DNA of 64,000 bases from Desulfobacterales bacterium (GTDB lineage: Bacteria > Desulfobacterota > Desulfobacteria > Desulfobacterales > JARGFK01), in contig JARGFK010000006.1 in the NCBI GenBank assembly GCA_029211065.1, positions 1-64,000 on the forward strand, written 5' to 3'. Below the pieces are notes generated by a model. The model worked only from the letters and a program-made list of their open reading frames with translations. It did not search any database and was not told the origin of the DNA. Shown here piece by piece: positions 12,880 through 14,991 of this stretch. A program made the position numbers and the translations under genes. The stretch's first letter is position 1, and the number at the start of each line of letters is the position of its first letter.

Positions 12880-13259
12880 ATGAAAAGCCCCACTGAACTG
12901 TTTTTAGAAGCTGAAAAGAAATGCCGCGACCGGTTGAAGGATACGGATATCACAGCGAAACCTCATTTTCCGGCAGAGTGGAACAGCTCCGGGTTTCTTC
13001 CCTTAAATTGGGCGGGATCCCTTCGGGCGACTTCCCGGCATTCGACCTTGCCATGCAGTTTAGTGCCCTTCCCCGGGTCCCTGTGGTCCTGCGCTACAAT
13101 GACGCAGACGGCCCCTATCCGGCTCAATGCAGCATCCTGTTCAGGCGGTCTGCAGAAATTTTTCTGGACCTTGAATCCGTCGGCATTGCCGGAACGCTTC
13201 TCACCGGGAGCCTCATCAAACCCTGCGCGTCTAATCATAAGAGAAAGGAGCTCAAATGA
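12880..13259 (+). pseudogene. DUF3786 protein gene, apparently frameshifted
   Basis: The frame from ATG 12880 gives MKSPTELFLEAEKKCRDRLK, a plausible N-terminus, then loses similarity. A second frame that covers about 12970-13259 gives the C-terminal DUF3786 pattern: VEQLRVSSLKLGGIPSGDFP, VVLRYNDADGPYP, SILFRRSAEIFLDLESVGIA. The two overlap near 12950-12985, so one indel there would join them. Either the gene is broken or there is a sequencing error. The second frame ends in TGA overlapping the ATG of the selenoprotein gene (ATGA at 13256-13259), so the two look translationally coupled. Confidence 0.6.
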
Positions 13260-13885
13260 CCGAAAAAGCGATTCTTGAAATTTTTTCCGATTACACCTGA
13301 CCGTGGTGCTATTTCATTACCGGGTGTATTGAAAGGCTTAAGAAGGAATACGAGATCGAAACACGCTGGGTTGCTTACCCGCTCCGGCCGGATACGCCGG
13401 AGGAGGGGCTTTCACTCGAACAGGTATTCGCAGGCAGCGGCAAGGATATTCATGAGATGAATATCCGCCTCAAAAAAGCCGCCAAAGCGGCCGGACTGCC
13501 GTTCGGACACCGGACCATGACATTCAATAGCCGCTTTGCCCATGAAGTCGGCAAATGGGCTGAATCCCGAGACTATGGGGATGATTTTCATAAGGCTGTG
13601 TTCACCGCTTATTTTGCAGAGGGAAAAAATATCGGCCGCGTTCCTGTTCTTATGGATATCGTCGGCGCCGTGGGACTTCCGCGTCAGGAAGCCCGGCAGG
13701 TAATTGACTCCCGGGCCTTTGCCCCTGCAGTCGATGAGGACTGGCTGCGCGCCCAACAGGTCGACCCGGAGTATATCCCTTCTCTGATGATAAACGGCCG
13801 CTTGGCGGTTAACCCGCAACAGTATGACCTGTTCAGACAGTTTATGCGCGACAACCATATTCAGAAACGCCCGGTAACGGGCTGA
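13256..13885 (+). CDS. Selenocysteine-containing DsbA/FrnE-like thiol oxidoreductase (U-P-W-C)
   Basis: Read through an in-frame TGA at 13298-13300, this frame gives a 209-residue DsbA-family protein. The N-terminus ILEIFSDYT-U-PWCYF matches the beta1/active-site region of FrnE-type proteins (IFSDxxCPWC), with Sec at residue 15 replacing the first Cys and Cys at 18. Downstream are GLPFGHRT, an insert helical domain, AEGKNIGRVPVLMDIVGA and the cis-Pro loop IPSLMINGRLAV, as expected for the fold. AAGGAG lies five bases before ATG 13256. No signal peptide is present, so it acts in the cytoplasm. A SECIS-like hairpin follows the UGA. Without Sec insertion only 14 residues would be made, and a gene caller would start the protein at 13457. 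Confidence 0.85.
13312..13334 (+). promoter_or_regulatory. Bacterial SECIS-like hairpin of the DsbA-like selenoprotein
   Basis: UUUCAUUAC (13312-13320) pairs with GUAUUGAAA (13326-13334): eight pairs and one U-U mismatch, with loop CGGGU at 13321-13325. The U-U mismatch falls 17 bases and the loop G residues 22-24 bases after the UGA. Known SelB-binding elements such as E. coli fdhF also have a bulged U at 17 and loop G/U near 23-24. Confidence 0.7.
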
Positions 13886-14330
<445 letters not shown>

Positions 14331-14355: not shown

Positions 14356-14826
14356 TCAGGCAGCCGTTTCCTCGATTTCGATATCATCCTTGATATCGAT
14401 GCACCCGATCACGCTCTGGGCCGCAGGGCATCTCGTAATGTAAGCGGAAAACGCTTCCTGGGCATCGGCGCGCTTTTCCCCGGGGATCTTCAGGTGGTAT
14501 TTGACCCGTATCCGTGTGATTTTTAGCACTTCATTTACACTTTCGATATCCCCCTCGACGGTTGCCCAGTAACGGTCTTCAGGCGTGGGAATCTTTTTTC
14601 CGGCCAGCACCGCGGCCAGTGTCCCCATCATTCAGCCGGCGGTGGCTGCTACGATATGGTCCAGCGTGGCAGCGTGCTCTTCCTCAGGGTCGATGCGGTA
14701 GAATTTTTTTATCCCGCCGTGGACGCCGTAGTAGACCGGCTGGTCGAACCCCTCGATGGTGGCCCTGCGGGTGGGGCCCTTTTCCCTCACAATCCTGATA
14801 CGCGATGTATGAACTATTTCTCCCAT
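14356..14826 (-). CDS. Selenocysteine-containing OsmC-like protein
   Basis: On the minus strand the frame from ATG 14826 meets TGA at 14634-14632 and continues in phase to 14356, giving 156 residues with Sec at position 65. Around it the sequence is AATAG-U-MMGTLAAVLAGKK, where OsmC/Ohr-family proteins have the conserved peroxidatic Cys (AG-C-x-x-GTLAAxL). The second family Cys is present at residue 133 (TRCPAAQSV). Both halves are clearly one OsmC fold: beta-rich N-terminus, central helix with U65, C-terminal IRVKYHLKIPG. AAAGGAG precedes the start. A six-pair hairpin with GGU in the loop follows the UGA. Predicted role: reduction of hydroperoxides or other redox substrates in the cytoplasm. 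Confidence 0.88.
14600..14619 (-). promoter_or_regulatory. Bacterial SECIS-like hairpin of the OsmC-like selenoprotein
   Basis: On the minus strand CUGGCC pairs with GGCCGG (five Watson-Crick pairs and one U-G) around the eight-base loop GCGGUGCU. The stem starts 13 bases after the UGA and the loop GGU lies 21-23 bases after it. Distance and loop sequence fit known bacterial SECIS elements. Confidence 0.68.
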
Positions 14827-14991
14827 GGTTTTCTCCTTTCCCCGGCCATCCGGGGGCTACAGGTTATGATGCACGCGATCGCAGTCATTGGAGTGGTTGT
14901 CAAAAATATGTTACCACTGAATTGTCCGGCGGCTGTATCGGAATGGAATTATGACAACAGCTAAAAACAAAGAAAGTTTCGCTGCGGCGCT

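Follow-up and report, generated by a model that had tools for sequence, protein, structure and literature searches.

OsmC-like selenoproteins (PF02566) were predicted in 2005 from Sargasso Sea sequences (3 sequences, motif UxxT) by a search that kept a candidate only when it had at least two Cys homologues (PMC1088965), and 5 sequences were reported from the GOS data in 2008 (PMC2398784). In this marine OsmC-like selenoprotein, homologues with Cys outnumber those with Sec. An inventory of 2026 gives the OsmC-like selenoprotein one line and counts different Sec motifs as separate subfamilies (PMC13188914), and according to a method paper of 2025, every selenoprotein known so far seems to have homologues with Cys, and any lacking them may be lost at the method's filter (PMC12013277). 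The OsmC-like selenoprotein is, as a kind, already known. In a 64,000-nucleotide stretch of a Desulfobacterales genome, hereafter the window, a small gene that would ordinarily be taken for two fragments almost certainly encodes a single OsmC-family protein with a UGA-encoded Sec at the catalytic position. Judged from sequence comparison, the probability that this is an OsmC/Ohr-type protein in which UGA codon 65 is decoded as selenocysteine is about 0.93; what looks like a broken gene would then encode a selenoenzyme with Sec in its active site, in a family that is widespread and serves peroxide detoxification.

The gene, its active site and its surroundings

The coding sequence (156 aa) lies on the minus strand at positions 14359 to 14826, starting with the ATG at 14826 and having a single TGA interruption (14634-14632) before the terminal stop codon, also TGA, at 14358-14356. 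It is preceded by a Shine-Dalgarno-like AGGAG (14833 to 14837, minus), and such a site precedes the gene in 113 of 119 homologues. Translated through the internal TGA, the protein matched PF02566 (OsmC) with 44.2 bits against a cut-off of 27.5, while no NCBIfam model was passed. The table-11 ORF list (at least 90 aa) had only the downstream half, of 91 aa. The preliminary description had joined two minus-strand frames into one OsmC protein by taking TGA 14634-14632 as Sec; the frame and its flanks were confirmed, and about 120 homologous loci, arranged alike, keep TGA there. It had also made the reading depend on the presence of selB and selC, and the source genome was found to contain selA (610 bits), selB (392), tRNA-Sec (selC, 77) and selD (375), all above the cut-offs. 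selD is present three times (L119, L120 and L121), and a single in-frame TGA interrupts each copy.

Codon 65 (14632 to 14634, minus) stands in the context AG-U-MMGTLAAVL, and Cys133, the presumed resolving Cys of a Cys-Pro motif (14428 to 14430, minus), in the context CPAAQS. Both residues are invariant in the homologue alignment, as is Arg20, a candidate for the catalytic Arg of Ohr/OsmC peroxidases. When a profile of 14 members was aligned with Ohr/OsmC structures, Sec65 fell on the peroxidatic Cys and Cys133 on the resolving Cys of the CP motif (E 5e-4 to 0.1), in agreement with the earlier assignment of the TGA to the conserved reactive Cys position and of a second redox Cys to residue 133; distant OsmC/Ohr proteins have Cys at the position matching Sec65. 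The AlphaFold2 model had a pLDDT of 85, being weak at residues 35-44. Its top PDB matches in a fold search were all of the OsmC/Ohr type, the first being E. coli OsmC (1nye, E 4e-6), with TM-scores of about 0.5 overall against the OsmC/Ohr entries, and the predicted fold is that of OsmC. Identity to characterised enzymes is about 15-20%, and at the position of the Glu that precedes the catalytic Cys in Ohr there are Leu55/Asp56, the Glu being not obviously kept; for these two reasons the substrate may differ.

It was also noticed that a DsbA-like gene (13256-13885, plus strand) adjoins the Sec-OsmC gene in convergent orientation. Read through an in-frame TGA at 13298-13300, which gives a UPWC active site, it matched PF01323 with 84.6 bits and is likely a second selenoprotein, of a known kind, the DsbA-like UxxC selenoproteins. 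Between the two selenoprotein genes, at 13907-14323 (plus strand), lie the start and the end of an NADH:flavin oxidoreductase (PF00724) in different frames with the middle absent, which is either a remnant or an assembly error. Elsewhere in the source genome (contig C52, L003, 1396-1794) there is a second, different Sec-OsmC with the motif ALGSUMVLT (PF02566, 37.5 bits), and three relatives of it, at 52-56% identity, have TGA too.

Codon 65 among homologues and the SECIS hairpin

Homologues keeping TGA at codon 65 have 40-83% identity and come mostly from Desulfobacterota/Syntrophales. Over the 122 loci examined, some of which are possibly one genome counted twice, codon 65 was TGA in 120 and TGC in 2 (L089 and L090). 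Within the same order (96 genomes, the source included), 13 others had a full-length homologue with 40-73% identity, all 13 with TGA and none with Cys at codon 65, and all full-length matches in 395 genomes from the phylum had exactly one TGA each. Among 84,980 genomes scanned there were 427 relatives; the 80 best came mostly from Syntrophales and Desulfobacterales, alongside MAGs bearing the labels Nitrospirae, Acidobacteria and Methylomirabilota, among others. Among 119 motif-matched members, 114 were of the UMMG-T type and 5 of the ULTG-T type. One genome, G065, has a second, partial Sec-OsmC copy that ends in a stretch of N (L024, L037). As far as sequences can tell, these proteins form a large group of the OsmC family in sulfur-cycle and syntrophic bacteria, with Sec nearly always at the catalytic position where checked.

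In a tree built from 107 distinct proteins, the two Cys copies were sisters nested among Sec members (SH-aLRT 99 and 96), so that the tree requires one change, from Sec to Cys. One of the two genomes, a Syntrophaceae MAG, holds both a Sec copy (L079) and a Cys copy (L089), which are possibly selenium-dependent isozymes; the nested pair, one of them beside a Sec copy in the same genome, amounts to a natural Sec-versus-Cys experiment. Both Cys-copy genomes have selA, as do 46 of 47 gene-bearing genomes, the lone exception being 82% complete. The presence of selA was uninformative as a discriminating test, since selA is frequent too among relatives without the gene, including genomes with only distant Cys homologues.

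Following the UGA, a hairpin with the loop CGGUGC was located at 14600 to 14619 (minus), which is nt 16-35 when the U of UGA is taken as nt 1. The six-pair hairpin of the preliminary description, with GGU 21-23 bases past the UGA, was recovered with six firm pairs plus one G-U, its GGU being at 14611-14609. The bacterial SECIS model has a loop of 3-9 nt, a stem of 4-16 bp, a G within the first two loop positions, a distance of 16-37 nt from UGA and an energy of -7.5 kcal/mol or lower (PMC13188914), and the window hairpin lies within every one of these bounds (6-nt loop with its G in second place, 7-pair stem, distance of 19 nt, -11.2 kcal/mol). Taken alone and compared with shuffles, it did not stand out from what its base composition gives (43 of 200 shuffles folded as well; z -0.75), and the only match in Rfam, to an unrelated family, was due to chance; its significance comes from the comparative evidence and not from single-sequence folding. 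Over 81 distinct sequences, 97.2% of the pair cells are kept. With synonymous codons shuffled among sequences within each column, 95.1% of pairs remained (sd 0.25) and 0 of 2000 shuffles reached 97.2%, kinship being ignored in this comparison, while randomly drawn synonymous codons gave 79% (sd 1.2). Pair 16-35 varies on both sides, being C-G in 60 and U-A in 14. The two Cys copies have lost one central pair (U-C), with the hairpin energy weakened to -5.0, and the hairpin of a deeper branch is a different one, rich in G-C and lying a few bases farther along. By these comparisons, the SECIS element is under selection beyond synonymous codon choice.

Alternative readings and proposed function

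If the UGA were a true stop, the locus would be a pseudogene, or its two halves would be translated separately, the second from the ATGATG right after the UGA. Such a downstream half is indeed an ORF with an ATG directly past the TGA (14631), which annotation would give as a 91-aa protein, whereas about 120 loci share a TGA at codon 65, and coding constraint is seen on either side of it. Of the differences between the window gene and 111 relatives, third codon positions hold 72% upstream of the TGA and 56% downstream; coding constraint therefore crosses the TGA, since a region past a true stop would not show this bias. The preliminary description had looked to relatives for an ordinary stop with no conservation downstream, and the TGA and both of its flanks were found conserved in homologues. 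Re-initiation is argued against by the deeper branch, which reads TGA-CTG-AC and lacks the ATG that the main branch has there; the two homologues with TGC have one continuous frame, and a split would cut the predicted catalytic helix. The conserved TGA and the coding constraint ruled out both the pseudogene and the split gene, and we regard a true stop as highly improbable. Reading of the UGA as another amino acid, such as Trp or Cys via a near-cognate tRNA and with no Sec involved, is scarcely credible: UGA is an ordinary stop elsewhere, including the end of the Sec-OsmC gene itself, Cys is the residue it exchanges with, the conserved hairpin is lost where UGA has become TGC, and tRNA-Sec and SelB are in the genome.

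With codon 65 read as Sec, SelB and tRNA-Sec would decode the UGA under direction of the hairpin that follows. Sec65 would most likely attack organic hydroperoxides (or hydrogen peroxide) and be oxidised to selenenic acid, which would then form a selenenylsulfide with Cys133, a bridge that a cellular dithiol would reduce. We infer this peroxidase mechanism, together with its substrate and reductant, by analogy with the Ohr/OsmC family, in which the peroxidatic residue attacks the hydroperoxide, a second Cys resolves and a dithiol reduces. The same Sec-OsmC could instead have a role other than that of a peroxidase, perhaps in thiol/selenol redox reactions or in sulfur handling. This would suit its distance from characterised Ohr/OsmC, the shifted acidic residue before the catalytic Cys and hosts mostly from lineages known as anaerobes; the gene neighbourhood, in which no neighbour was conserved across 79 loci, gives no pointer to function. 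Against it, both OsmC/Ohr redox positions are invariant, and in six loci the downstream neighbour resembles rubrerythrin (named by eye), a peroxide-detoxifying protein. Considered on its own, the peroxidase function thus argued by analogy seems quite probable, and a non-peroxidase role rather unlikely.

Comparison with known systems

The branch is large (427 relatives from one genome scan) and almost all Sec where checked, which contrasts with the published remark that no known selenoprotein seems to lack homologues with Cys (PMC12013277). This large, almost Sec-only branch (UMMGT/ULTGT) appears to be undescribed and is probably an unlisted subfamily, set apart from the published sequences by description. 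With moderate confidence we take the branch to be an OsmC selenoprotein subfamily so far undescribed and spread over hundreds of genomes, whose ancestral residue is Sec, now nearly fixed, and whose Cys forms are secondary. If this reading is true, the subfamily would have escaped notice because selenoprotein searches demand homologues with Cys and because annotation pipelines halve the gene.

Like the published OsmC-like selenoprotein, the protein belongs to the OsmC fold family and has a single Sec in place of the catalytic Cys, with a bacterial SECIS directly 3' of it. Its branch differs in having U-M-M-G-T or U-L-T-G-T in place of UxxT, so that T is at +4 and not at +3, provided that the published motif is meant literally, and in that nearly every examined member has Sec, the two being set apart by published descriptions. 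With the Ohr/OsmC Cys peroxidases (E. coli OsmC 1nye, Ohr 6d9n and T. thermophilus OsmC 1ukk) it shares the fold, the peroxidatic position and the resolving Cys of the CP motif, whereas Sec replaces the peroxidatic Cys, identity is 15-20% and different residues surround the position of the Ohr Glu. Sec peroxiredoxin (TxxU) and Sec glutathione peroxidase (UxxT) likewise use a bacterial Sec as the peroxide-attacking residue, the role suggested here for Sec65, but both have the thioredoxin fold, which is unrelated to OsmC.
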